This document shows, piece after piece, positions 5,695-51,431 of a stretch of 64,000 bases of DNA (the stretch's first letter is position 1; every line of letters starts with the position of its first letter). Made by a program: the position numbers and the translations under genes. The stretch lies in the NCBI RefSeq assembly GCF_032884065.1, contig NW_027062691.1, positions 310,001-374,000 of the forward strand. Direction: 5' to 3'. Below the pieces are notes generated by a model, which saw nothing but the letters and a program-made list of their open reading frames with translations, did no database searches and was not told where the DNA came from. This DNA comes from Artemia franciscana. Lineage: Eukaryota > Arthropoda > Branchiopoda > Anostraca > Artemiidae.

Positions 5695-6181
5695 AGGAAT
5701 TTAATAAAAAAAACAAGCTTTTTTTAACTGCAAGTAAGGAGCGACATTAACGTTTTTGTTAGTAATAAACATACGTACCTTATGAATTGACTTATGTACC
5801 AAACTTCTATATTTGTATATTTTTATTACACATGTGAAAAAAAAAACAAATGAACACGCATTCGTAATCTGTCTTCTGGCAAAAAATTCAAAATTACACA
5901 TTTTTGCTGATAGGAGCTTGAAACTTCTACAGTGGGGTTTTCTGATACGCTGAACCTGATGGTGTGATTTTCGTTAAGATTCGTTAAGATAAGGAAAATA
6001 TTCTCAGGCTCGTAACTTTTGATTGGTAGGACTAAACTTGATGAAACTTATATATTTAAACTCAGCATTAAAATGCAACTCTTTTGATGTAACTATTGGT
6101 AAGAATTCCATTTTTTAGAGTTTCGCTTACTATTGAGCCGGGTCGGTCCTTACTACAGTTCGTTACCACGAACTGTTTGAT
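5695..6181 (+). mobile_element. Family H repeat, internally deleted copy
   Basis: The left end has 'aaacaagctttttttaactgcaagtaaggagcgacatt'-type sequence. The right end is the hairpin CAGTTCGTTACCACGAACTG (6156-6175) followed by TTTGA. Compared with the full copies (about 1.7 kb), most of the interior is missing, with direct joining of the left palindrome arm to the 'cttctggcaaaaaatt' module near 5830. Family H has no visible transposase and is probably non-autonomous. Confidence 0.75.
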
Positions 6182-6856
6182 AAAACAGATTTTTGCGAAA
6201 AAAATAATAAAATAAATAAAAACAGGGTTTTGAGATGTTCCATATTTGGTTATCAATTATATCCTTTGACGTCTTCCAAATCGCTATTTGTCTTGCTTCA
6301 AAATACATTATTTGAAATAGTGGTCCACCCAACTAAGTATCTTATAATTAGAATCAAGTAAAAATGAATAACAGATAAATCTTTTATTTAGGACAGCGAA
6401 AAATAGCTCAAAACTCTCAATTAGGACTACAAAAAAGTTAAATTAAAATCTATTAAAGCTACCAAAAAAATCTACCAAAATGTCATTAACAGTTTAAGCC
6501 TATATTATATATTTTTTGTCACTCCAATCATCAATAGTAGGTGCATCAATTCAAAAAAAAAAATGTTGTGGCTCGGTGGCTAATTTTACTCAACAAATCT
6601 AGGAGGGGGTAGTTTTACTTTTTCCTCCATTTTTTCAATGAAAATAGCCCAAAATGCATTTTTCAAAATAGAGGAGCAATCAAAAATATTGGGAAAATTG
6701 CTCCCATGTGCCCCCCCCCAGCTAACAGGCCTATTTAATGGATAGGTAGCAGGTTTTGATAAATTATTAACCAAGTAACGTCAAATTCCAATTGCTCAAG
6801 ACTGTTTTTACCAAGAGTAGGGGTGGCCCAAAGGAGAGTGATTGATTCAGCCCTTA
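6182..6856. other. Spacer between two oppositely oriented family H copies
   Basis: AT-rich, with a G/C-run segment at 6590-6730. The short minus ORFs look like chance. The flanking family H hairpins (6156-6175 and 6862-6881) are in inverted orientation, so the two copies plus spacer form a large inverted arrangement. Confidence 0.4.
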
Positions 6857-8579
6857 TCAAACAGTTCGTGGTAACGAACTGTAGTAAGGAGCAACCCGGC
6901 TCAATAGTAACCGAAACTCTAAAAAATGGAAGTTTTATACCAATAGGTACATGAAAAGAATCAAATTTTAATTCTGATTTTAAATATATAAGTTTCATCA
7001 AGTTTAATCTTACCCATCAAAAGTTACAAGCCAGAAAAAATTTGCCTTATTTTAGAAAATAGGGAGAAACAGCCCCCTATAAGTCATAGAATCTTAACAA
7101 AAATCACATCATCAGATTCAGCGTAACAAAGAACCCTATTATAGAAGTTTTAAGTTCCTATCTACAAAAATGTGGAATTTTGTATTTTTTGCCAGAAGTC
7201 AGATCACGGATGCGTGATGATTTGTTTGTTTGTTGTTTTTTTTCGCAGGGGTGATCGCATCGACCCAGTGGTCTTAGAATCTTGCAAGAGAGCTCATTCT
7301 AACGGAAATGAAAATTTCTAGTGCCCTTTTTAAGTGACCAAAAACATCAGAGGGCACTTAGACCCCCTCCAACGCAAATTAATTTCCTAAAGTCATCCGA
7401 TCAAAATTCTGAGATGGCTATTTTATTCAGCGTAGTCGAAAAACCATATAACTATGTCTTTGGGGACGACTTACTCCCCCACAGTCCCCGTGGGAGGGGC
7501 TACCAGTTACAAACTTTGACCAGTGCTTACATATAGTAATGGTTATTTGGAAGTGTACTGACGTTTTCAGGGGGATTTTTTATGTTGTTGGGGGGGGCGG
7601 GGGGTTGAGAAGATGGGGATATGCTTGGGAACTCTTATTGGAGTAATTGGTCATGGGGGAAGAAATCTTTCATGAAGGGAGCACAGGATTTTCTAGCACT
7701 ATTTAAAAAAAAACAATTAAAAAATAAATATGAAAAAGTTTTTTCGACTGAAAGTAAGGAGAAGCATTAAAACTTAAAACGAACAGAAATTATTACGCAT
7801 ATGATGGGCTCACCTCCTCCTAATACCTCGTTCTTTACGCTAAAGTATTTTTAGTAATTTCAACTATTTATTCTACGGCTTTTGTGATTCAGTGGCCATT
7901 CTTGAGAAATTAGGACAAAATTTAAGCTTTAGTGTAAAGAGCGAGGTACTGAAGAGGGGGTGAACCCCCTCATATACGTAATAAAAACATGAGAATACAG
8001 AAGTTAGTTACGTAAGCTAATTGGTAAGTTACGTATATCTTTTACTAATAAAAACATTCGTAAAAATCAAAAGTTCTAGTTGCCTTTCTAAGTAACCAAA
8101 AAAATCGGAGGGCAACTAGGCCTTTTCCACCGCTCTTTTTTTTCTCAAAATCACCCGAACAAAACTATGAGAAAGCCATTTAGCTAAAATATAAATATGC
8201 AAATTTCGATTTAATTATTCATCTGCGGAGAGCCAAAATCAAAACATGTATTGATACAAAAACATTCGGAAATTAAATAAAAAAAAACAAGTTTTTTACG
8301 GAAAGTAAGGAGCGACATTAAAACTTAAAACGAACAGATTTTACTTCGTATATGAAAGGGGCTGCTTCCTCATCAACGGGCCACTCTGTACGCTAAATTT
8401 TTTTACTGTTTTAAAAAGTAGAGTTAAGAGAAAGAGTCAAACTTTAGCGTAAAGAGCGGGGCGTTGATGAGGAAGCAGCCCCTTTCATATACGAGGTAAA
8501 ATCTGTTCGTTTTAAGTTTTAATGTCGCTCCTTACTTTCAGTTAAAAAACTTGTTTTTTTTATTTAATCTTTATTAAGT
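6857..8579 (-). mobile_element. Family H repeat, near-complete copy (about 1.7 kb)
   Basis: Read from the hairpin end (6862-6881), the order is: hairpin; AGTAAGGAGCaAC; the 'ggctcaatagtaaccgaaactct' block; the 'gccagaagtcagatcacgg' block; the GATCG..GACCCAGTGGTC module; a C/G-rich stretch; a first palindrome with arms around 7780-7850 and 7915-7990; a 'gttgcc..ctaagtaacc' block; and a terminal palindrome at 8267-8575. Other copies at 10113 and 17975 have the same order in the opposite orientation, which defines the element as a unit. No protein-coding capacity is seen. Confidence 0.8.
8267..8575. repeat. Terminal palindrome of the family H copy
   Basis: Arms of about 130 bp (about 8275-8398 and 8440-8565) are near-perfect inverted repeats around a short loop. 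They contain AAGTAAGGAGCGACATT, 'aaacttaaaacgaacag' and the variant GGGGCTGCTTCCTCATCAAC in both arms. Transcripts would fold into a long hairpin. Confidence 0.85.
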
Positions 8580-11834: not shown

Positions 11835-12463
11835 TCTTCTATTTGAGGGAGTAAGTCTTTCCTAAAGACATAGTTATTATTTTTTTTTACTATGCTAGAC
11901 AAAATGGCTATCTCAAAATTTTGATCCATTGACTTTGGGAAAATATGAGCGTGGGAGGGGGCATAGGTGTCTCTAATTTTTTCGGTCACTTAAAAAGAGC
12001 ACTAGAACTTTTGATTTCCGTTAGAATGAGCCCTCTCACGACATTCTAGGACCACTTGATCGATACGTCCTGGGAAAAAAAAAAAAAACAAACAACAAAC
12101 AAATAAACAGGCACCCGTGACCGGTCTTCTGGCAAAAAATACAAAGTTCCACATTGTTGTAAATAGGAGCTTGAAACTATTACAATAGGGTTCTCTGATA
12201 CGCTGAATACGATGGTGTGGTTTTCGTTAAGATTCTATGACTTTCATGGTTGTCTTCCCCTGTTTCCCAAAATAAGGCAAATTTTCTCAGGCTCGTAAAT
12301 TTTGATGGGTAAGACTAAGTTTGATCAAATTTATACATTTAAAATCAGAATAAATTCCGATTCTTTTGATGTAACTATTGTTATAAAAATTTCATTTTTA
12401 GAGTTTCGTTTACTATTTAGCCGGGTCATTCCTTACTACAGTTCGTTACCACGGACTGTTTGA
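11835..12463 (+). mobile_element. Family H repeat, partial copy (hairpin-proximal part)
   Basis: It runs from the 'gagggagtaagtctttcctaaagacatag' block to the hairpin (12439-12458, one mismatch in the stem) plus TTTGA. It lies in the same orientation directly behind the preceding copy. The palindromic half is absent. The 11769-11834 segment between them is unassigned. Confidence 0.75.
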
Positions 12464-17974: not shown

Positions 17975-19643
17975 TTAAATAAAAAAAACATTTTAACTGC
18001 ATTTTTTTAACTGCAAGTAAAGAGCGACATTAAAACTTAAAACAAACAGAAATTATTCCGTATATGAAAGGGGTTTTCCCCTCTTCAACCCCTCACTCTT
18101 TACGCTTAAGTTCGACTCTTTATCAAAACTTCACTTTTTAAAATAATAAAAACTTTAGCGTAAAGAGCGAGGGGTTGAGGAGGGGACAACCCCTTTCATA
18201 TACGGAATAATTTCTGTTCGTTTTAAGTTCCAATCTCGCTCTTAACTTGCAGTTAAAAAAACTTATTTTTTTAATTCAATTTCTGAACGTTTTTGAATTA
18301 ACGCAGGTTTTGATTTTGGCTCATCACACATGAATAATTAAAACGAAATTTGCATGTTATCTTTTTTTTTGCTAAATGGCTTTATCATAGTTTTGATCAG
18401 ACGATTTTAATAAAAAAGGGGTGGGGGAGGAGGAATAGTTGCCCTCCATTTTTTTGTTACTTAAAAAGGCAACTAGAACTTTTTTTTTACGTTTTTATTA
18501 GTAGTAAATATACGTAACTTACGGATTAGCTTGCATAACGAACTTCTATATTTGCACATTTTTATTACGCATAGGAGGAGGTTCGCTCCCTTGTCAATAC
18601 CTTGCTCTTTACACTAAAGCTTGAATTTTGTCCCAATTCCTTAAAAGTGACCCCTGAATCACAAAGGCCGTAGACTAAATAGTTGAAATTACTGATAAAA
18701 CTTTAGCGTAAAGAGCGAGGTATTGTGGAGGAGACGAACCCCTTATTTACGTAATAATTTCTGTTCTTTTTAGGTTTTAATGCTGCTCCTTACTTCCAGC
18801 TGAATTTCTTTTTAATTTATTTTCTCATTGTTTTCTTTTTTAAATAATGCTTGAAAATCCCGCAGCCCCTTCATGGAAATTCTCTTCCCTCATAAATTCC
18901 TCCATGGAAAGATCCTCCCATAGCCTCCCCTCCCCTCATCACGCAAAAGTCCCCCTGAAAACATCTGTACACTTCCCAATAACCCTTACCATATGTAAAC
19001 AATGGTCAAAGTTTGTAACTTTCAGCCTCTTCCCCGGGGACTGGGGGGGATTAAGTCGTCCCGAAAGACATAATTGTTAGGTTTTTCGACTATGCTAAAC
19101 AAAAAGGCTATCTCAGAACTTTGATCCAGTTACTTTGGGAAAAAATGAGTGTGGGAGGGGGCCTAGGTGCCCTCCAATTTTTTCGGCCACTTAAGAAAGG
19201 CCGTAGAACTTTTAACTTCCGTCGGAATGAGCCCTCTCGCGACATTGTAGGATCACTGGGTCAATACGATAACCTCTGAGGAAAAAAAACAAAACAAACA
19301 ACCGAACAAATAAACACGCATCCGTGATCTGTCTTCTGGCAAAAAATACAAAATTCCACATTTTTGTAGATAGGAGCTTGAAACTTCTACAGTAGGGTTC
19401 TCTGATACGCTGAATTTGATGGTGTGATTCTCGTTAAGATTCAGTGACTTTTAGGTGAAGTTTCCACCTATTTCTAAAATAAGGCAAATTTTCTCAGGCT
19501 CGTAACTTTTGATGGGTAAGACTAAACTTGATAGAACTTATATATTTAAAATCAACATAAAAATGCGACTCTTTTGATGTGACTATTGGTATTGAAAAAA
19601 TATTGCTAAAAAAAATCACAGTTCATTACCACGAACTTTTTGA
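17975..19643 (+). mobile_element. Family H repeat, near-complete copy
   Basis: It begins 'taaataaaaaaaacatttta' with 'gcaagtaaagagcgacatt' and ends at a degraded hairpin (about 19619-19638). The terminal palindrome (arms about 18000-18115 and 18150-18260) carries CAACCCCTC in both arms. A second palindrome spans about 18545-18770. The hairpin-side 'ctcctta' block seen in other copies is eroded here. Confidence 0.8.
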
Positions 19644-20293
19644 AAACAGTCTTTTTTCTCTGAGAAGCACCCCCCCCCCCCCAAAAAAAAGTTACACAAA
19701 ACATTAGACATTCCGAAAAAATTTAATCTTAAAATACGAAATTAAATCAGAAGAGTATATAGAAAATTAACTAAATTTTAATTAAAAATATTTTAATTTT
19801 ACGAATAAATATTGCAAGAAGCGTAAACGACAGAAGAATTCTGATTGTATGTTCAAATTCAGTATTTTAAATTGTATTATATTATATTACTATTAAATTG
19901 TATTGTATTACTATTAAATTATATTATTATATTAAATTGGATATTGGATTGCATACCTCAAATTTATATTTTTGCAGAAGAAGTTACGAACAAAGAAATT
20001 TGGAGCCAAAACTGTGTTTCCCACTGAAAAATCTTATTAAATGATTAACGTATAATAATTTGATACCATTTGCTGTATTCAGCCTGTATGGTCCTGACTC
20101 AAAAGAGGGGTAATATGAACTGTAAGTGCAGAGCAACTATTGTCAATTAGCACCCTCAACTCTAAAAACGAAATGCAAAATAACTTATCAAATGAATTTT
20201 CTCACTGACAATTCTAATGCTGAGTCAAAATGCAAAAATTTATCAAGTTTACATTTTCCAATCAAAAATCAAAAGCGAAAGAAAATTTATGAA
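19644..20293. other. AT-rich stretch up to an assembly gap
   Basis: Simple-sequence-like TTATATTA tracts at 19860-19940. Nothing else seen. Confidence 0.4.
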
Positions 20294-20393
20294 NNNNNNN
20301 NNNNNNNNNNNNNNNNNNNNNNNNNNNNNNNNNNNNNNNNNNNNNNNNNNNNNNNNNNNNNNNNNNNNNNNNNNNNNNNNNNNNNNNNNNNNN
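20294..20393. other. Assembly gap (100 N)
   Basis: Exactly 100 Ns, the conventional size for a gap of unknown length. Frames reported through it are meaningless. Confidence 0.98.
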
Positions 20394-20547
20394 AATTATG
20401 AAAAGGAAAAATACCCTTAAGAAGCAGCATAACCAAGGACGTATCCAGGACTTTTGCTTGGGGAGGGAGGGGGTACAAAATAACGATAAATAAAAGTTCA
20501 AATAGTAATGAATCCTTTTAATTGACAGTAAATTTCACAAAAAACCA

Positions 20548-20638
20548 CTAGGTATTTCGGTTACATATGTAGTTACCGTCATCAGTAGTAATATTGATGT
20601 ATTCTGACGGGCACTGCATATGTGACCAAAATATCTAG
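20548..20638 (-). ncRNA. Inverted repeat with a hammerhead-ribozyme-like core
   Basis: Left arm 20548-20585 and right arm 20604-20638 are inverted copies of one 35-38 nt motif. Read on the minus strand, the 20548-20585 arm contains CTGATGA, then a self-complementary segment, then GAAA. This is the order of the conserved core of a type I hammerhead (CUGAUGA, stem II, GAAA). The fit is imperfect: the base after CTGATGA does not pair ideally, and stems I and III are not convincing by eye. Hammerheads are known from Penelope-like elements and retrozymes, so a repeat-borne ribozyme remnant is possible. A plain foldback is the alternative. Confidence 0.25.
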
Positions 20639-21335
20639 CATTTTTGCTGAAATTTATCACCGTGTATTAAAAAGTTTAAAACCTTGTATTATCTATTTGA
20701 ACTCGTATTTATCGTCATGGAAAGGCAGTGTGGTCTTCGAAATTATCTATTACAAAATTACACTTTAAAAAACACGTCAAATATTGTTTGTATGCATTTT
20801 TTCTTATGTTTTTACGAGTCGGGAGCAAATATCAGGGGCGATTTTCAAACCTGGTGTGCCTCCCACCCCTGGATACAACCTTGATGAAACTTATTTAATC
20901 GAATCAAAGATTCTAAAAACATCGGTACGGCAATCTTATGTAGGGCGGTTACAGTTGTGTGTCTATGATGATAATAATTTATTTTCTCACCCAAAGGGTA
21001 CAAAAAACAACTAGAGTGCAAAAATTAAACAGCAAAAACAAATGCCAATATACGAATGTAACATTAACTACTGAAGAACAATACAAAACACTAAGTAGAC
21101 GGGTCAGCAGATTAACAGCATTTCCCTTAGGGGTGATCGTGTCAAACCAGTGGAGCAGAAAATCAGAAAATTTTGTTTAAACTTTGAACAAATTTATGTT
21201 CTAAAATCTTTTTAACCATAAATTTGGTGTTCTAGTGCCCACTTCAAGTAACAAAATGATAACGCCAGAGTAAAGTACAGTTTTCAGCAATTTAGCATTA
21301 ACTCTGGACTTTTTTCCAGCCAAATTGCTGATGCA
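20639..21335. other. Intergenic, nothing recognised
   Basis: Short overlapping frames at 20684-21180 have no recognisable motif. Confidence 0.35.
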
Positions 21336-22650
21336 CCAAACAATTCGTGGTAACGAACTGTAAGTAAGGAGTGACGTGGTTCAATAGTAATCGAAACTCT
21401 AAAAAACGAAATTTGGTATTAACAGTATATTAAGAGAATTGGCTTGTTATGCTGATTCCAAATATATAAGATTCATTAAGCTTAGTGTGACCCATCAAAA
21501 GCTAAGGGTCTGAGAAAATTTGCCTGATTTTCGAAAATAAGGGAAATACTCCCTAAAAGTCAACGAACCTTGATGAAAACCGCACCACCAGAGTTAGCGT
21601 GTCAGAGAATCCTATTTTTGAGATTTCAAGCTCCTATCTACAAAACTGTCGAATTTGGTAACTTTTACCATAAGAAAGACCACGGATGCGTGTTTATTCG
21701 TTTTTTGTTGTTTTTTTTCCCAGGGATGATCGTATCAAACCACTGGTGCTAGAGCATCGCGAGATGAGTCATCTGAACGGAAAATTAAAATTTCAAGTGC
21801 CCTTTTTAAGTGACCAAATAATTGGAGAGAAGCAAGCCCCCCTACCACGTCCCTTTCCCCCCAAAATCGTTCAATCAAAATTTTGAGTCAGCCATTTTGT
21901 TCAGCATAGTTAAAAGGTCCGTGAACTATGCCTTTTGGGATAGTTTGACCCCCACGGCCTCTGGAGGAGGGTCCTTAAGTTATCAAATTTGCCCATTGCT
22001 TATGTATGGTATTTGTTACTGAGTTTGCTTGCGTTTGCATTACGTTTAAGTTTGCATACGTTTTTCAGGTGGGGTAAGGATGGTGAATTTTCCGCTGGGG
22101 GGATTTCCCATGGGGAAGAATGTTCCCGGGGACTGAAATTTTCAGAGGAAATTTTACACTGGGGGAATATGCCGGAATTTCTGTGAGAAATTATTTTTAT
22201 ATGCTTAACTTTCTCTTCGCTGACTCAATTTTAGGTCTTGAGATTTTAAGAGTAAATTTTTAAGGGTAAGTAATTGTCCGGGGTGAATTTTCACCGGGAT
22301 TGAATTTTCTAGAGGATCTTTCAGTGGAGGGGCATTTTCAGTGGAGGTGGATAAGATATTATTTAACAAACCATCAAACACTAAATAAAAAAAAAACAAG
22401 TTTTTTTTAACTGAAAGTAAGGAGTAACATTAAAAATTAAAACGAACAGGAATTGTTGCGAATATGGAGAGATTAATCCCTCCTAAATACCTCACTATTT
22501 ACGCTAATGTCTGAATTTTGTCCCAATTCTTTAATAATGACTCATGAAACAGAAGAGTCGCTTAATTAGAACAATTAAATGATTTTTTAAAGTACTAAAA
22601 ACCTTTAGTGTGAAGAACGAGGTGATGAGGAGAGGGCAACCCCCTTCATA
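21336..22650 (-). mobile_element. Family H repeat copy
   Basis: It starts at the hairpin (21341-21360, one stem mismatch) followed by GTAAGTAAGGAGTGAC. It runs through the 'gatcgtatcaaaccactgg' module (21727) and a G-rich block with many 'gggg' runs (22070-22350). It ends in a palindromic stretch (22385-22640) with 'gaaagtaaggagtaacatt'. The terminal palindrome is eroded compared with other copies. Confidence 0.7.

Positions 22651-25164: not shown

Positions 25165-25168
<4 letters not shown>
23186..25168. other. Intergenic, nothing firmly recognised
   Basis: About 2 kb, AT-rich. A minus-strand stretch at 23205-23300 reads as a short polar peptide (MNHSKANLTQSTQQLAEETQ...) but has no identified family, flanking splice sites or extension. 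Confidence 0.35.

Positions 25169-25249
<81 letters not shown>
25169..25249. repeat. (AT)n microsatellite
   Basis: About 80 bp of AT dinucleotides. The Ile-Tyr repeat proteins predicted across it are artefacts. Confidence 0.98.
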
Positions 25250-25251
<2 letters not shown>

Positions 25252-26659
25252 GGAGAAATTCTATCTGTATTTACCTTTTTTTTTTATCTATTGTCCTAAT
25301 TGTTTTGTTTCTCCTTTCATGGAGGCCATAACTCATTTTGAAATATTATTTAGCTCCTCTGCAGTCGAATCACCATAAGGATCGTTATTAAGATCCTAAC
25401 AATTCATAAGGATTGTTAGTTATTGCTTTAAAAAAAGAAAGAAAAAAGAATTGGGTTTGAATGAAGTTCAAATCTCTATATTACATTTGACTTGGGCAAA
25501 ACATTAATTAACATACATAAAACGACCCCAATGATATTGCTACTAAATTAACCTTTTGCAAGACTTATATACTCTTAATGCAAAATAATCTGCGGGCGAG
25601 GACAAGAGACAGCTGCTTCTTGAAAAAAAAAAACTTTCTATAGCGAACGGCTAATCAATGATTTAATGGGAAAATCTATTCCAGATTAATAATCCTTTTT
25701 AAAAATTTGTATACTTAATCCTTGCTGCTGTACTAAAGGGATTTTTTATTTAGGATTATGTTTATTCATTAAGATATGTTCGACTTTTAGATGCTTTAAT
25801 TTGGAGAAGTTGATGATAAAATAAAGCTACAGCATAGATTCTTGTTTTAGTGAAAATATTTAACAGTGGATAGATTAACTGAACACAAGTTTGGGCTTCC
25901 CCATCAGGTCACAGCCTCGTAAGTCATATTGGACCTTCGACACCAAGGCCCAATGGAATGCCGCTCCACAAATGTGATTCATCGGTCAAGGTCGCCGATC
26001 CACATTTGTGATTGTCTCCCGGACAAAAACTGTCACGCCCCGTTTCATGTTTACCGTTTAATATAGAATTATACAAACTCAAGAGCATATTTGAGCATGA
26101 GATGATGAAAAAAAAATGATACCACTGAAAACTGCTTTTTACAGTCTTTTTCATCTAGAAAGCTTCTGTTTTGATCCATAGGCCTCGAACGATTTACTCC
26201 AGCTATGGAGCTACTGCATTCAGTTGGTTCACGAACCTTAAGACCCAACTTAACCAAGAACCTAGCAAGATGTCAAACCTCACATGGCACTTGCCCTAGA
26301 AGCAGATGCTCAGCAAGAGATCAGACTTGAAACCTCCTAAATACACAGCTTAAGCCCTAGCTGCTAATCCCTACAGCAATTAAATTCTCTTTCATGGATG
26401 CAAACAAAGCAGCCCTTTCAGTACCAGTCAGATCAGGTATAGAAACCCAAAAAAGAAACTGTGACTGTTTACCAGGTTGACTGAACTTCAAAAGCTCACC
26501 TAGTAATTAGGCTATGGACGGAAGACTTTGAAAGCCCTATCCTCATCCTTCAATCAGAGGTCACTTAAGGCAAAGGCCTCGAGAGCTAAGGTACAACTTA
26601 CTACTGATCTTGTTTCATTTACTTTCACCAGGAACTCTCAAAATCTAAAAAAAAAAAAA
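25250..26659. other. Intergenic with a small hairpin
   Basis: Nothing gene-like is recognised. At about 25962-26012 there is an imperfect foldback ('ccacaaatgtgattcatcgg' against 'ccgatccacatttgtgat'). Confidence 0.4.
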
Positions 26660-27245
26660 TATATTCATTTTGCTTACATTTTCATCTAGGATGCTTAAAT
26701 AACCAATATAAACAAAGTATAAGAGAGTTTTACTTCCCCAGTTGATTCCATGTTCTCCCATTGTCTTTGCTGTACTCCTTAGAACAAAATACATCAAAAT
26801 TATTCAAATAAAAGAGGATGGGACGCAATCCTGCTTAACTCCTGATTTAATACAAAATCAGGTGTTAATCTCATTTTCTACTTTAACGGCAGAAATGCTA
26901 TTGTCGTACATAGCACAGCTTACTTAAATGTATTTATCTGTAATACCATACTTAGATGGGACCTTTGTCAAAGCTTTTTCATTAGCTGAATCAAAAGCTT
27001 GCTCGTAATCTATAAAACTGAGGACTAAAGGGGTTTCATGACTCAGGCAGTTCTAAATTATTTCTCTTAAAACTGTATCTACAGCATCTCGAAGTCTAAA
27101 AAATATCATCATACTAAGTAATTTGCTTCCTATAGAAACCTAGCTAATGTCTCTATAATTACTACCTTCACCCTTATCACCTGTCTTGTAGAGGGGTTTA
27201 ATTAGAGTTTTCCCAAAAACACTAGGTACTTCCAGCTCTCAAAAA
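26660..27245 (-). pseudogene. LINE reverse transcriptase remnant
   Basis: The minus strand reads through non-LTR retrotransposon reverse transcriptase landmarks in the right order: PSVFGKTLIKPLYKTGDKG, SNYRDIS, then LVLSFIDYEQAFDSANEKA (the catalytic F-x-D-x-x-x-A-F-D region), KYGITDKYI, a KSGVKQDCVPS segment (normally GVKQGC-LSP) and a decayed counterpart of the YADD box near 26690. In-frame stops and a missing stretch between the 'RLRDAVD' and 'CLSHETPLV' segments show that it is dead. Family members normally carry an upstream endonuclease, which was not found. The 5' end lies near 27245. Clade not determined. Confidence 0.8.
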
Positions 27246-28023
27246 TAATGTTCACAATTTTCAATAATTTATCTCTACTTCATATATATATCCTCAAAAT
27301 TTTCTGCCCCTCTCACTTATAGTTCTTTCCTTATTAATAATTGAGGCACCGTTCCTACCTTTAACTGGGACAAGTTCAGGTAAACTATTTCCTCTCAATT
27401 TATTAAAACGCCAGTATAATATTTTACTATTATGCCGTTAGGCACTAAATTATATTTTATTACTTCATACTAAATATACAATAAAAACAAAAATCAGATG
27501 AAAGTGAATAGAATTCAGTAAAACTAAAAGAAGATAATTTCCGTTCATTCCAGGATGTAGCCCTCTACTTTCACTTGAAAAAACGAATATTCAAAATTTA
27601 AAAAAACCTAAATATTCAACCAAGTGCAGATGATGAAGTATTAAAAGATCTTGTTTGGCTAAACGACTACTAAGGCCTTATTTACACGATTCTACCTATA
27701 CAGTTAAACCTAGGACCTCAGAATGGCATGTTTTTGTGGTTTATATTGGCTGTTTTTGATCATTTAACTATCAAGTCCGTCCTTTTCTGTTAAAAAGCCT
27801 TACTTCTCCGATATTTATTCTTTTTTTTTTAGGAAGATAGGCAGATTGGTCACCCAACTACAGAGACCTTACTCCTCTGATGAAACAATTCAAATACTTT
27901 AAAAGGCTGATCACGACTTAGAGTTATGTAAGAATGACGGATTTCGACCTTCTGTTTTCTCCAATTTAGTCTTAAAGGAAACAACGAAAAATTCATGAAG
28001 CATATCGAGCGAAAAGGGCCTTC
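27246..28023. other. Region downstream of ACBD6, nothing recognised
   Basis: AT-rich. The frames at 27850-28195 have no recognisable motif. Confidence 0.4.
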
Positions 28024-28056
28024 TTTATTATCAAAAAAATTAAGTAACACTTTATT
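28024..28056 (-). terminator. Candidate polyadenylation signals for ACBD6
   Basis: Two AATAAA hexamers on the minus strand, at 28051-28056 and 28024-28029, lie about 205-235 nt past the ACBD6 stop codon. This is a normal distance for a 3' UTR. In an AT-rich region the motif can also occur by chance. Confidence 0.45.
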
Positions 28057-28259
28057 CTCACAAAACCAGTGGCTAGTCTACAGACCCTCATTTTTCCTAA
28101 TCATTATCAACTGGTTATTTCACCTTCTTAAAATAGGTGTAATACAACTATCCAAAATTCAAAAGATTCACAACAAGATTTTGTCAAAATCTTAGTTTGG
28201 TTTTGAAGGAAAAGAAAAGCAAGAGGAACCAATCTGTATGACATTTGAACCGGATTAGT

Positions 28260-28964
28260 TCACAATAAAGTTGCCATTTTTATCCTCTCAGAAGCAACAG
28301 CTCTGGGAGTTAGTCCTTCACTGTCTTTCACATTAACATCAGCCCCGAATTCCAATAAAATTTTCAAACATTCAACATTGTCACACAAAGCAGCATAATG
28401 GAGTGGCGATTGACCATCTTCATCCCTTTTGTCTACGTCAGCTCCTCTTTCAAGCAAAAAGCGGAGGACTTCAATTGAATTTCTGTCTGAAGCCCAGTGA
28501 ATCAATGACAATCCACTTTCGTCTGTCACGTTTACATCGACAACTGACAATGCTTCCTTAAGGGCAGCGAGGTTGTTTTCTTTACAAAAGTCGAAAATAT
28601 TTTTGTCCGTTTCCGATAAAATTATTTCATCATTTCTTATACAGCTAACACTAACCCAAGGTTTCGTTTTAGCACTTTGAAACTCAGGATTAATTCTTCG
28701 AACTACGTCAGTGTACTGTGATTGAGCTTCCTCTTTAGATATATTCTCTAGTTTTTTCCATGCTGACCATTTCTTACTGCCTTTGAAATCCCAAAACCCT
28801 GGTTTCGGTGTTGTACAAGGACCTTCAGTAGCTTGCTTATAATACCCATATAATTCCAATAGGCAGCTTTCTTGAAGAGAACCAGCAACTCCTTTGACAT
28901 AGGCGATAGCAAGATCGAAATCTTTGTCAATTTCATCAGAGAGGCCATCGTTAAAAGACTCCAT
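28260..28964 (-). CDS. ACBD6: Acyl-CoA-binding domain-containing protein 6 (ACBD6-like)
   Basis: This intact 234-residue protein has the architecture of ACBD6, a soluble protein that binds long-chain acyl-CoA. In vertebrates it is known to support N-myristoyltransferase. The ACB domain spans residues about 15-95, with the hallmark YGYYKQATEG (39-48), KKWSAWKKL (64-72) and Tyr84, matching the Tyr/Lys/Trp positions that hold the CoA moiety. An ankyrin block follows, with a diverged repeat at about 117-147 and two clear repeats at 149-180 and 182-213, each with the LLERGADV or LLEFGADV signature. A short capping stretch ends at 234. No signal peptide or membrane segment is seen. The start ATG has a favourable context (G at -3 and G at +4). 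The coding region is intronless, and its start lies 3 nt after the stop of the METTL23-like exon in the same frame. The C-terminus is slightly short compared with vertebrate ACBD6. Confidence 0.93.
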   Translation of the reverse strand: MESFNDGLSDEIDKDFDLAIAYVKGVAGSLQESCLLELYGYYKQATEGPCTTPKPGFWDFKGSKKWSAWKKLENISKEEAQSQYTDVVRRINPEFQSAKTKPWVSVSCIRNDEIILSETDKNIFDFCKENNLAALKEALSVVDVNVTDESGLSLIHWASDRNSIEVLRFLLERGADVDKRDEDGQSPLHYAALCDNVECLKILLEFGADVNVKDSEGLTPRAVASERIKMATLL

Positions 28965-28967
28965 ATC

Positions 28968-29180
28968 TCAGCTTTTAGTTATCTCGTAAAGATTGATAAT
29001 ATGACCACTTAAAAAATCGCTAAAATTTTCTAAACACCCGTCATCCAAATTTTCTGTGTTGATTAGCTTGCACTTTAGACCCCACTTTAGCAAAATGGAT
29101 CTGATTGACCAGTCTGCGCTACGCTCTTGGTAGGAAAATATAAATTTCGCTGTTGGGTTTTCTTCGAGCAGATAAGCAAC
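28968..29180 (-). CDS. METTL23: Last coding exon of a METTL23-like methyltransferase
   Basis: A 71-codon minus-strand exon follows a good acceptor (pyrimidine-rich, TTTACAG at the 29181 side) and ends in TGA at 28968-28970. The encoded C-terminus contains YLLEENPTAKFIFSYQ, directly followed by ERSADWSIRSILLKWGLKC. It aligns from memory with the METTL23 C-terminus (human ...YQVRSADWSLEALLYKWDMKC...). METTL23 is a seven-beta-strand methyltransferase reported to act on histone arginine. The SAM-binding motifs lie in upstream exons that were not found; the 100-N gap at 29300 begins only 120 bp upstream. The remaining 70 residues are intact. The stop is followed by GAT and then the ACBD6 ATG. A related METTL21/22-type enzyme is less likely because the YQxRSADWS block is METTL23-like. 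Confidence 0.82.
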   Translation of the reverse strand, partial: VAYLLEENPTAKFIFSYQERSADWSIRSILLKWGLKCKLINTENLDDGCLENFSDFLSGHIINLYEITKS

Positions 29181-29299
29181 CTGTAAATAGCGAAACTGGA
29201 ATTATACTACTTGAGATACTTTGAAACTATTATAATTATAGAAAGACTAGTTAAATTAATCGTTGAATTGTCTGAATTGCTATGATGAGGGATGTGATT

Positions 29300-29399
29300 N
29301 NNNNNNNNNNNNNNNNNNNNNNNNNNNNNNNNNNNNNNNNNNNNNNNNNNNNNNNNNNNNNNNNNNNNNNNNNNNNNNNNNNNNNNNNNNNNNNNNNNN
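29300..29399. other. Assembly gap (100 N)
   Basis: Gap of conventional size just upstream of the METTL23-like exon. It may hide upstream exons or join unrelated contigs. Confidence 0.98.
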
Positions 29400-29803
29400 T
29401 AAGGGATTCGACGTGCAGTTTTTTTTTGCATAGCAAAGTGTAACAATGTTTATTAATTTCTATTTTTATGAAAATAACCGATTGATTGATTGACGATTAG
29501 AAAACTAGTATAATCAAAGACATTTTACTTCATTCAAGTAAACGTAATTTAATTTTCTTTTCATGATATAAGCCATAGTACAAGGAAACTAAGCAAAGAA
29601 CTTTATTCACAAAGCTAGGACCTTTTCCACTATACGTATCTCACCGCTAAAGACCCCTCATAGCATTTTTGTTGTACATATTTAAGTTGACGAAGTCATA
29701 CTAACTAATATTTTTTCTAACATTCCCAGTTTCCCAAATTTACTAAGATTAACGAAGTAGGTTCAAAATCCAAAACATACTCCAACAAACAAGGAACATT
29801 TGC

Positions 29804-29936
29804 CAGGATTGCCACCAGGCGAAAAAAGAAACTACTAAATTTTAGTGTTTTTTTTGGTTAGTTTAGTGATTCTTTTGTTTATGCAATATAAAAAATCACT
29901 AAAAATAGTTATAAATCACTAGAGGTGGCAACCCTG
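29804..29936. mobile_element. Small hAT-type MITE (133 bp)
   Basis: It begins CAGGATTGCCACC and ends GGTGGCAACCCTG, an inverted terminal pair of the CAGGGTTGCCA kind common in hAT MITEs. Inverted subterminal copies of 'ttttagtg' and 'cactaaaa' extend the palindrome. No 8-bp target-site duplication is evident, so it may be old. Confidence 0.65.
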
Positions 29937-30382
29937 ACAGGTACTGACCATTGGCTGGTCAGTGCGAGCCTCGGTGATGCGGTCATGCGTTTCGGCGCGA
30001 GCCTCGTTTATCGCGTAGGTAGAGATCAAAGCCAGTACAGATTTACTTAATCTACGAGTAAACAACTAAAAAATACATTTTAATAAATGATCTTTCCACA
30101 TTGTACCAAGATTTTTTTTTTTTTGTAAATTCTAAATAGTTGGTAGTCAAAATGAAACCGCAAGGAAGCATACTTATCACCAATTAAATCCAGTTAAATG
30201 TGCCATTTAATTTATTGTGATACAACAATTACGCCGTTCTGATAAGACAGTGGTTGACGAATCGATCAAAAAGTCGATATCAATCGAGAGCATGATAGAC
30301 AGCAGTTGTTAAACTCGTGCATTTAGTTTTTGTTTAATAAAAATAAAGCAAAAGCGGGCATTACTTCTGCCGCACTCCGTAT
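29937..30382. other. Intergenic, locally GC-richer
   Basis: The segment 29940-30030 is unusually GC-rich for the window, with 'gcgagcctcg' at 29966 and 29998 flanking 'gcggtcatgcgtttcgg'. No gene recognised. Confidence 0.35.
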
Positions 30383-30482
30383 NNNNNNNNNNNNNNNNNN
30401 NNNNNNNNNNNNNNNNNNNNNNNNNNNNNNNNNNNNNNNNNNNNNNNNNNNNNNNNNNNNNNNNNNNNNNNNNNNNNNNNNN
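30383..30482. other. Assembly gap (100 N)
   Basis: Exactly 100 Ns. Confidence 0.98.
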
Positions 30483-31859
30483 AAGAACAGAGAAAAGGCA
30501 GTAGCCTAGGAAAAACATAATCTGTCTGTAAACCCTGACCTACAGAAACAGGCCATAAAATATGGAAGGAATTCATCTACTCTTTTCTTGTAAATAAAAA
30601 TTTAAACGGTTTTTTATCTGTAATGCCAACTACTTACTACACATTGGAACTTTAAAGTAATTTGACTTAAAAGTAACTAAATTTGTGGTTGATTAATCGC
30701 TAAGTGTCAACTAATTTACAAATTAATTAAGTTTAAAAACAAAAACAAATATAGCTGCTTTCATTCATCCATTGTTTTGTTCATGCTGAGAGAGAGAGGT
30801 TTCCTGCAATGTCAGTGAACCAAGGTTAGGGTCGGGCCGAAAGGTTCACCCGACATTATTGGTAGAGACATATTATGACAGGAAGGAAGGAATGGCGACA
30901 GGGACGTTCCCCAGAGTAGGTTTCATCAGGTAGAAGAATGTTTTGGCAAGGGCAGAGCAAATTCCACCCCTCCCACCAAAACCAAGAGTACAAAAAATAC
31001 AAGCGGTATAAATTAAATTGAAGCATTCCAAGTGAATTCAAATTATTCCATTTTATGGCGTATGTCTCCTTTTTCCTTAACAAAAAAAGGAACCAAATAC
31101 CAGGCCCCATTTTCATAGCTCCATAATATAATCCTCTTCTGTCATTCTGAATTGCAACGAGAATTGATAAAAAAAGGAGAAATATACGCCAGTTAGAGGC
31201 GTGTGTCTCTTTATCTTCATAACGATACAAGATAAGAAAAGTCTGACTCCAACATTCCATTCCTCATGCTTAGTTTATCCAAGACACATACATACCCCAT
31301 TATGACCAAAATGGCATATGTCGCACTTTTAATTATCCCAGCTGGTTTGTCATAAGGGTTTATTACGACATCTTAGGAAAGATAAAGGTATTAAGTTGAA
31401 ACTTCAGTACCTGTTGAGGGGGATTTATAACTAAATATGGATGTTAGAATTGCCTGTCTGCAATATATCTGGGATGGCTCAGGACATTAAAGTGACACAG
31501 TCACGAAATATTGTATTGTATATCGAAAAAAAGTAAGCGCATGCGCTCAGTGCATGCGCTCTATGTATGCATGCAGGGTGTCCAAGGCGTAACTGAACAA
31601 TATTTGAGGAACAGGTAAAAGCAATAAATTGAACCTTTGAGGGCTAGTACAACTACTAGTTATGCATTTAGTACTACAGCTATTGTGACTTTTCAAACTG
31701 AAATTGCTGTTAACTGTTTGAATTTGTGACTACTTACAACTGCAAATACTTGTGACTGTGACTGCAATCCCAACTACTTGTAATTGCAATTGCCAGTGCA
31801 TATGGCTTTAACTGCATCAGCTACTTTGCTATAGCAAATAACAAGAAAACCCCTCAGAG
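30483..31859. other. Intergenic; one unrecognised 134-codon open stretch
   Basis: The minus frame 30856-31260 is open for 134 codons and rich in aromatic residues, but shows no family motif. Two of its parts resemble each other (KETHASNW and KETYAIKW), which points to repeat-derived sequence. A palindrome AGCGCATGCGCT (31536-31547) followed by 'gcatgcgctc' lies to its right. Confidence 0.3.
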
Positions 31860-32470
31860 CTGGAGCAATGCCAAAGGGGTAGATATAGACTGGCTGGCAG
31901 GCTTTCTAGCTCAAAATCCACAGCTGTCACTACGCAAGCCTGAACCCATAAGCTTGGATCAAGCGGTGAGCTTTAATGGGGTCAACATTGGACAGTTCTT
32001 CTCAAACCTGAAGTAGGTTCTAGAAAAGCTTCCTTTGACTACAAGTGACATATACAACTGTGACAAATTTTTTTTGCATAGTTCACGTTCCTCCTGTGGT
32101 GTTTGGAGAGAGGGGTTAGACGAGTATGCAAGACAACATCTTCAGAAAGAGATGCCCCTGTGACCATGGTTGGAACTGTTTCTGCAAGCAGTCAGTATTT
32201 ACTACCTTACTTTATGTTTCCAAGGAAAAATTTTCAGCCTCACATGCTAACTGGTGTTCCAGAAAACTCAGCAGGAGAGCCTAACAATCAGGCTGGATCA
32301 ATCAGGATCTATTTTTGAAATATATTCATCATCTTAAGGACATATTCACATGCATCTCAAGAGAGCCCAAAGCTTCTAATCTTAGATACCTATGACTCTC
32401 ATATCTCCTTAAAAGTTGCCCAGTTCGCAAAATATTCAGGCATCAAGCTACACATTAGCCGCAAGATCTA
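31860..32470 (+). pseudogene. pogo/Tigger-type transposase remnant
   Basis: Plus-strand pieces match a pogo/Tigger (Jerky-like) DDE transposase in order. LAGFLAQNPQLSLRKPEP is the end of the DNA-binding region, and NGVNIGQFFSNL leads into the catalytic domain. YNCDKF corresponds to the YNVDET box with the first Asp. YLLPYFMFPRKNFQPHML lies in the core, and LLILDTYDSHISLKVAQFA carries the second Asp. Stops and a frame change break the frame, and the third catalytic Asp region is absent. A decayed Tc1/mariner-superfamily DNA transposon. Terminal inverted repeats were not found. Confidence 0.82.
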
Positions 32471-50245: not shown

Positions 50246-51431
50246 TTTGACATATGTGAGTCACAAATCTTTAGTTTTACGTTTATGGATGACATTTTCT
50301 TCCAGCAAAAGGACAAGACAACTTGCCATACAACCAACGTAACAAACATGAAAAATAGAACAATCTTTTTCCTTATGGGTGGGCTTTAATAAAATATTAG
50401 TTTTGCATAATCCTAGAAAAATAAGCAAATATTTACTTCGCTCCTTACTTCAATATCGAAAACCTGACTTTTTAATCAATAGTAACTTCTTGGATCACAA
50501 TTTTTTTGTTATATTTATGCTTAAAAAGAAATGACAATATATAATATTGAATATATAATAACTAAAAGAACTCTTAATTAAAACAGTGAATTTTTTCATC
50601 TCATTTAAGCCCTCCTGGAGGGTAAATACAACAGCAATTACCTTAAAATCCTCACCGTATTTAAACTCTACACTGTATACTAAAGAAAAAATATTCTATC
50701 TTATGGCTTAACCGAAAGATTCCAATCTATTGTCTTTCTCTCGAAATATATTTTCAAAACACAGGGAAATATCATTGAGTGATTTACCTCCATTAGTTGT
50801 AGGCAAATTTTGCCCTAGCTGCGAAGCAATAATTTTGTCCGCTTTAAGGCCTAGCGGAAGTTCAGACATTTTACTCCCTAGTCAATTCTTACTCAAAATT
50901 GCGATTATCGCATTGTTATTCCTCGTAATTTTGCAAGTAAATAGGAAGATTTATCTGCAAAAGAACAATTATTTGAGGAGAAAACTAGAGAAATTATTAT
51001 TCGAGATTTTTTTTTTTGGGGGGGGGGGTCAACTCTTACGCAAGAAATACCAGGAAAACACGGGAAAATTAAACGTTTCGTACGGAAAATTAAGCATTTT
51101 GCAAAGTTTGGGGGGGGGGCAAATCCCTCTCCTGCGTACGTACCTGGGGTCTGGCCATCATTATTCGCCAGGGTGCGTTATAAACTTGTGGAAATTACAA
51201 ATAAAACGTACATGTCTTCGGGTTTTACTTCATGCAAACCAATTTACACAAATAAAATTTAAATAACTGCTTTTAGCGAAGTGATCAATTTACTTTATTT
51301 TGTTTATCTTTGCGGGTCCATGAAAAAAATTCTAAAGCTTGAGTGCTGCCTGTGTATTTGTATATCTGAATTTGTATTAGACTAAGACAGTAATTACACA
51401 TGACAACTACCTACACCTAGTAGAATTGGAT
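50246..51431. other. Intron sequence with an unrecognised 178-codon open frame
   Basis: The plus frame 50730-51266 is open for 178 codons. It has a hydrophobic stretch at residues about 55-72 (LLKIAIIALLFLVILQV) but also runs translated from T and G homopolymers (FFFGGGG), so the C-terminal half is unlikely to be real. No family is recognised. Confidence 0.25.

Follow-up and report, generated by a model that had tools for sequence, protein, structure and literature searches.

Transcripts carrying two adjacent open reading frames (ORFs) are annotated in Drosophila, where FlyBase release 6.04 lists 159 dicistronic gene pairs and where, at loci with polycistronic transcripts only, the distance from stop to start runs from -34 to 319 nt (PMC4528330). 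CG33713/CG33714, one of the dicistronic pairs of Misra et al., combines a main ORF for acyl-CoA binding with an upstream ORF of 90 aa for RNA binding, and the most distant expressed sequence tag (EST) given for the association came from the crab Carcinus maenas (PMC2276209). CG33714 is SLIRP1 (PMC5559520), and Anox is the fly homologue of ACBD6 (PMC7057175). CG33713 is entered elsewhere with low viability and CG33714 as semi-lethal (PMC11674832, Table 1).

The brine shrimp Artemia has a comparable locus in the window analyzed here, a stretch of 64,000 nucleotides corresponding to C105:310001-374000, where C105 is the scaffold that carries both copies of the gene pair. As in the FlyBase dicistronic pairs, adjacent ORFs encode two proteins, and the 3 nt that separate them lie inside the range of -34 to 319 nt; the fly pairs are backed by cDNA or RNA-seq, whereas the Artemia unit is proposed from genome structure. 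The Drosophila SLIRP1/Anox locus is similar in that its two-ORF transcript has an acyl-CoA-binding protein in the downstream position, as does the Carcinus maenas EST, but its upstream ORF encodes a 90-aa RNA-binding protein, whereas that of Artemia encodes a 217-aa METTL23-type methyltransferase, 3 nt away. For this comparison we take CG33713 to be Anox. The upstream ORF in Artemia is METTL23 and not of the SLIRP type. A human SLIRP query found nothing credible in C105:300001-414000 or 509000-578999, and its five genome-wide matches, on C1 and C14, had 28-29% identity and were not credible either.

An earlier note on this DNA had called so tight a pairing unusual in an animal, which is overstated in view of the 159 FlyBase pairs and of the reports from fly and crab in which an ACBD6 homologue follows another gene as the downstream ORF (PMC4528330, PMC2276209). 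The Artemia case would be an arrangement of a known arthropod kind, with METTL23 as an apparently new partner for ACBD6. METTL23 did not appear in the literature covered as a partner of ACBD6 or, among the dicistron papers listed, of any dicistron; the dicistron search is a weak test in that METTL23 was not a required term. Subscription papers lay mostly outside the literature covered. The one paper that came up for METTL23 together with ACBD6 concerns epilepsy genetics and is unrelated. We offer, tentatively and with some doubt, the possibility that ACBD6 is a habitual second cistron whose upstream partner changed within Pancrustacea, being SLIRP in the fly and the crab but METTL23 in Artemia. 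If so, the ACBD6 start codon would be reached independently of the gene that precedes it, and dicistronic partners would be swappable while the downstream member stays downstream. Comparison of the partners would tell functional coupling from chance capture, and would indicate the route to the second ORF. Should transcripts confirm the Artemia unit, it would be a compact natural crustacean dicistron whose downstream gene has already been reported from fly and crab as a second ORF, there with a different partner.

Arrangement of the METTL23 and ACBD6 genes

The pair was found twice in the genome, both times on C105 and both times with the sequence TGA-GAT-ATG at the junction. The second copy is referred to here as copy B (coordinates below). 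In the window, direct reading of the minus strand across the junction gave ACT AAA AGC TGA GAT ATG GAG TCT. The features of the window copy are as follows.

29180-28968, minus strand: METTL23 exon 4, 70 codons plus TGA (28970-28968), phase 0, acceptor TTTACAG; its counterpart in copy B is C105:557990-558202
28967-28965, minus strand: GAT spacer codon from the METTL23 stop to the ACBD6 ATG, identical in copy B
28964-28260, minus strand: ACBD6 ORF of 234 aa with no intron; the ankyrin repeats follow the acyl-CoA-binding domain
29030-29044, minus strand: upstream ORF (uORF) MTGV*, 4 codons, out of frame; the sole ATG within the 335 nt preceding the ACBD6 start
28051-28056, minus strand: first AATAAA past the ACBD6 stop, 203 nt downstream, with a further two at 230 and 440 nt
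29181-29299, minus strand: 3' end of METTL23 intron 3, 0 of 119 sites different from copy B; candidate site of an internal start
30383-30482, no strand: run of 100 N marking where the alignment to copy B starts (window 30382 = C105:556438); exons 1-3 of the same copy lie from C105:572781 up
29300-29399, no strand: second run of 100 N, within intron 3; 55 bases lie between the aligned pieces in copy B
25638-30382, minus strand: stretch that aligns to copy B (C105:556438-562995) at 88-98% identity, piece by piece

The ACBD6 ATG (28964-28962) lies in the same frame as the METTL23 TGA and has G at -3 and +4. This contiguous, single-frame spacing and this start-codon context had been described in the earlier note, as had a gap too small to hold a 3' UTR, a poly(A) site and a promoter; the minus-strand reading bears out all of these, the gap being 3 nt.

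The names ACBD6 and METTL23-like, given to the genes from the letters alone, were upheld, the latter provisionally. The ACBD6 ORF matched the Pfam acyl-CoA-binding protein (ACBP) family PF00887 (E 3.7e-27; the match spans residues 14-89, counted in the stop-to-stop ORF), and its C-terminal part matched the ankyrin repeat families PF13637, PF13857, PF12796 and others. The ACBD6 family is characterized at the protein level by acyl-CoA binding and stimulation of N-myristoyltransferase. The ACBP domain is followed by ankyrin repeats in the ACBD6 family and in the same order here; the human ACBD6 gene has several introns, whereas the Artemia gene is intronless. A retrocopy origin of the latter is conceivable. 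When the ACBP part was compared with the PDB, 2cop (ACBD6) ranked second of 20 matches, behind 2cqu. A single-sequence structure model of ACBD6 had a mean pLDDT of 53.9 and was confident in the ankyrin part only, with residues 1-130 below 50. The nine NCBIfam families returned for ACBD6 all fell far under their cut-offs, and of 14 pattern matches to ACBD6 in viral contigs, 0 were confirmed.

METTL23 exon 4 by itself had no match in Pfam or the PDB, and the window exon is named METTL23 because copy B holds the complete gene. Exons 2-4 of that gene (193 aa) matched PF10294 (E 5.6e-22). Its 217-aa protein contains, on direct reading, LEIGAGT and SDCFYD, which we take to be significant motifs of METTL23/METTL21-type (PF10294) methyltransferases. 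The protein matched 20 PDB sequences, the best being METTL21A (E 8e-14) and none being named METTL23. The PF10294 domain is common to the Artemia gene and to METTL23/METTL21-type methyltransferases in general, and the provisional choice of METTL23 over METTL21 is based on a human METTL23 sequence, to which three of the exons aligned at 41-54% identity.

Proposed expression of ACBD6 as a second cistron

No AATAAA or ATTAAA was present within 29180-28260, that is, from the start of exon 4 to the ACBD6 stop, and three AATAAA signals follow that stop. If canonical signals are used, the METTL23 mRNA should therefore carry ACBD6 too. We consider it rather probable that the two genes make up a single dicistronic transcription unit, with ACBD6 perhaps made mostly from a shorter, internally started mRNA. 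The dicistronic mRNA was one of the candidates in the earlier note, and it is supported at the level of gene structure (a common last exon, and AATAAA solely after ACBD6). RNA from the METTL23 promoter would run on through ACBD6 to give a dicistronic mRNA, from which METTL23 would be translated. Less surely, most ACBD6 protein would be derived from a shorter capped mRNA that starts either within exon 4 or just ahead of it, in the closing part of intron 3. Exon 4 would then act as a leader, presenting one weak 4-codon uORF followed by the ACBD6 AUG in its good context, and the long mRNA may contribute extra ACBD6 by stop-start reinitiation. Among the routes to ACBD6 the internal start is favoured, followed by reinitiation, with trans-splicing and read-through behind.

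The 335 nt that precede the ACBD6 start codon (29299-28965) contain one ATG. Among 1,247 overlapping minus-strand stretches of the same length, the fraction with one ATG or none was 0.0184. By synonymous shuffling, METTL23 exons 3 and 4 together had one out-of-frame ATG against about 4.3 expected (P 0.018), exons 1-2 had 6 against 5.5, and the entire METTL23 coding sequence had 7 against 9.5 (P 0.16). With dinucleotide shuffling P was 0.083 over the 335 nt and 0.12 over exon 4 by itself, and the first 335 nt of ACBD6, examined as a control, had 8 ATGs against 6.5 expected. All of these tests were picked after the sequence had been seen. The same 335 nt had no TATA motif and just two loose Inr-like matches; a bacterial-type promoter scan was set aside as meaningless for animal DNA. 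ACBD6 protein perhaps comes from a shorter mRNA that starts in intron 3 or exon 4, the preferred route, for which the ATG scarcity is weak and post hoc support. Simple leaky scanning over the full length of the mRNA was judged unlikely because the METTL23 coding sequence contains nine ATGs, its own start included.

Alternatively, a single dicistronic mRNA could serve both ORFs by termination-reinitiation, with ribosomes that end METTL23 resuming at the AUG 3 nt on. We regard this as the less likely route, although the short spacing, the good AUG context and the agreement of both copies are what it would lead one to expect. Reinitiation after an ORF as long as this one (217 codons) is usually poor, and the junction RNA was no more structured than its shuffles (z 0.32; 118 of 200 shuffles folded at least as well). 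In this model, even a real lack of ATGs in exons 3-4 should make no difference. In its favour, reinitiation by 80S ribosomes following inefficient stop recognition was shown in selected yeast (PMC11952965).

Spliced-leader (SL) trans-splicing at the exon 4 acceptor, which would resolve the pre-mRNA into an ACBD6 mRNA, appears quite improbable. Such trans-splicing has been reported in calanoid copepods (PMC4664967), but Artemia is a branchiopod and not a copepod. The trait of an SL-resolved operon, a trans-splice acceptor between the cistrons, is absent here, the stop-to-ATG gap of only 3 nt leaving no room for one.

Read-through of the UGA to give a METTL23-ACBD6 fusion protein, also put forward in the earlier note, gained no positive support and is highly improbable. 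Both ORFs lie in one frame with GAT alone between them, as read-through would need, but a shared frame has a one-in-three chance of arising and so carries little weight. The stop is followed by G (UGA-G), whereas UGA-C is the leaky form, and the RNA around it has no notable structure; on these two grounds the fusion was rejected as the main reading. In addition, ACBD6 starts at an AUG of its own, in a good context. Gene prediction at such a junction may merge the two genes, or truncate or lose one of them.

Two copies of the gene pair on one scaffold

Genome searches covered the 1.27-Gb assembly of 6,468 contigs. A brine-shrimp artemin query gave six matches in it: one of 99% identity over residues 156-230 of the query, three of 76-91% in neighbouring stretches, and two of 50-57% that represent a weaker relative. 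The METTL23 protein gave nine matches (12 of 12 candidates scored), in which each of the four exons appeared twice, all on C105, and the ninth was a distant methyltransferase on C8. In the ACBD6 search, 150 of 1,858 candidates were scored and 216 matches obtained; among the matches listed, two sites were full length, the window and C105:558206-558907 (plus strand), which were 97% identical, and the rest were mostly ankyrin repeats. METTL23 exon 1 was assigned by a purpose-designed peptide pattern and is kept in the second copy. Both ORFs are open in both copies, which are arranged on C105 as follows.

C105:550081-550152, 553093-553335, 555618-555743 and 557990-558202, plus strand: METTL23 exons of copy B, phase 0, GT-AG
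C105:558206-558910, plus strand: ACBD6 of copy B, the whole ORF lying in the last exon of METTL23, after GAT
C105:579250-579179, 576123-575881 and 573600-573475, minus strand: exons 1-3 of the window copy, whose exon 4 was found solely in the window

Copy B is gap-free over its span (C105:550081-558910), and no N occurs across C105:529000-568999. Near the window exon, METTL23 exons 1-3 were not found in C105:300001-414000 by tblastn or in the window by motif. The homology of the stretch with exons 1-3 to copy B ends at C105:572781, equivalent to B 556437, exactly beside the N run 572730-572780. The window homology to copy B begins at C105:340382 (window 30382), equivalent to B 556438 and directly adjoining the N run 30383-30482. 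Because the two breaks meet at B 556437/556438 and fall on N runs, the scaffold has a 232-kb block placed in intron 3. This N-bounded block, C105:340383-572780, sits in intron 3 of the window copy and holds copy B in the opposite orientation. The window shows only exon 4 of METTL23, because the scaffold places the block within the third intron. The window exon as an orphan fragment was dropped as a reading, the exons 1-3 of the second set ending exactly at the N run.

Pieces of homology were also present further out, in order, separated by insertions and surrounded by many dispersed repeats. On one side, B 549276-548893 and 548878-548364 correspond to C105:587540-587917 and 589985-590499. On the other, B 565212-565341 and 567032-567296 correspond to window 25631-25504 and 25508-25248. 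The layout of C105 may represent alternative haplotypes, or a large or misplaced duplication, set in one scaffold. As one copy may be allelic to the other, the two cannot count as strong evolutionary replicates, and anyone using C105 should note that they are nested in each other on this scaffold. That the junction itself is an assembly artefact is hardly credible: a misjoin is near, with N runs at 29300 and 30383 and exons 1-3 placed 232 kb off, but the junction is N-free in the window and recurs N-free in copy B, where four exons and ACBD6 are contiguous, so that the assembly error raised in the earlier note is refuted, barring one and the same error in both copies.

Divergence between the copies was assessed piece by piece. 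In METTL23 exons 2-4, 7 base differences were synonymous (pS 0.057) and 2 were non-synonymous (pN 0.004), and exon 1 had 2 synonymous and 2 replaced codons. ACBD6 differed at 10 synonymous and 9 non-synonymous bases (pS 0.068, pN 0.016). Intron 1 (642 sites) differed by 7.8% and intron 2 (2,277 sites) by 2.5%; in intron 3 the difference was 1.4% over an aligned body of 1,390 sites and 0 over the last 119 sites, which is not significant against 1.4%. Exon 4 diverged by 2.3% and ACBD6 by 2.7%, and downstream of the pair 6.2% of 289 and 6.1% of 906 sites differed. Because exon 4 and ACBD6 diverge more than intron 3, overall divergence gives no sign of constraint. The synonymous/non-synonymous split suggests constraint, clearer in METTL23 than in ACBD6, as seen in two copies only. 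Intron 3 of copy B (C105:556742-557341) has extra tandem units of about 180-210 bases, of which the window copy seemingly has one.

Other features of the window

An Rfam search of the window returned 0 families reaching the gathering score. Broken open stretches at 31762-32318 (plus strand) presumably resemble a pogo/Tigger-type DDE transposase. A recurrent peptide of the approximate form TIxFSVSENPTVEVSSSY occurs on the minus strand at 5907-6014, 12163-12216 and 19370-19423 and apparently derives from a dispersed repeat; related DNA repeats of about 75-88% identity lie around 6854-8568 and 18002-22002. A run of AT dinucleotides occupies 25168-25248, about 3 kb downstream of ACBD6, and an open stretch of 184 codons lies at 50712-51266 (plus strand).
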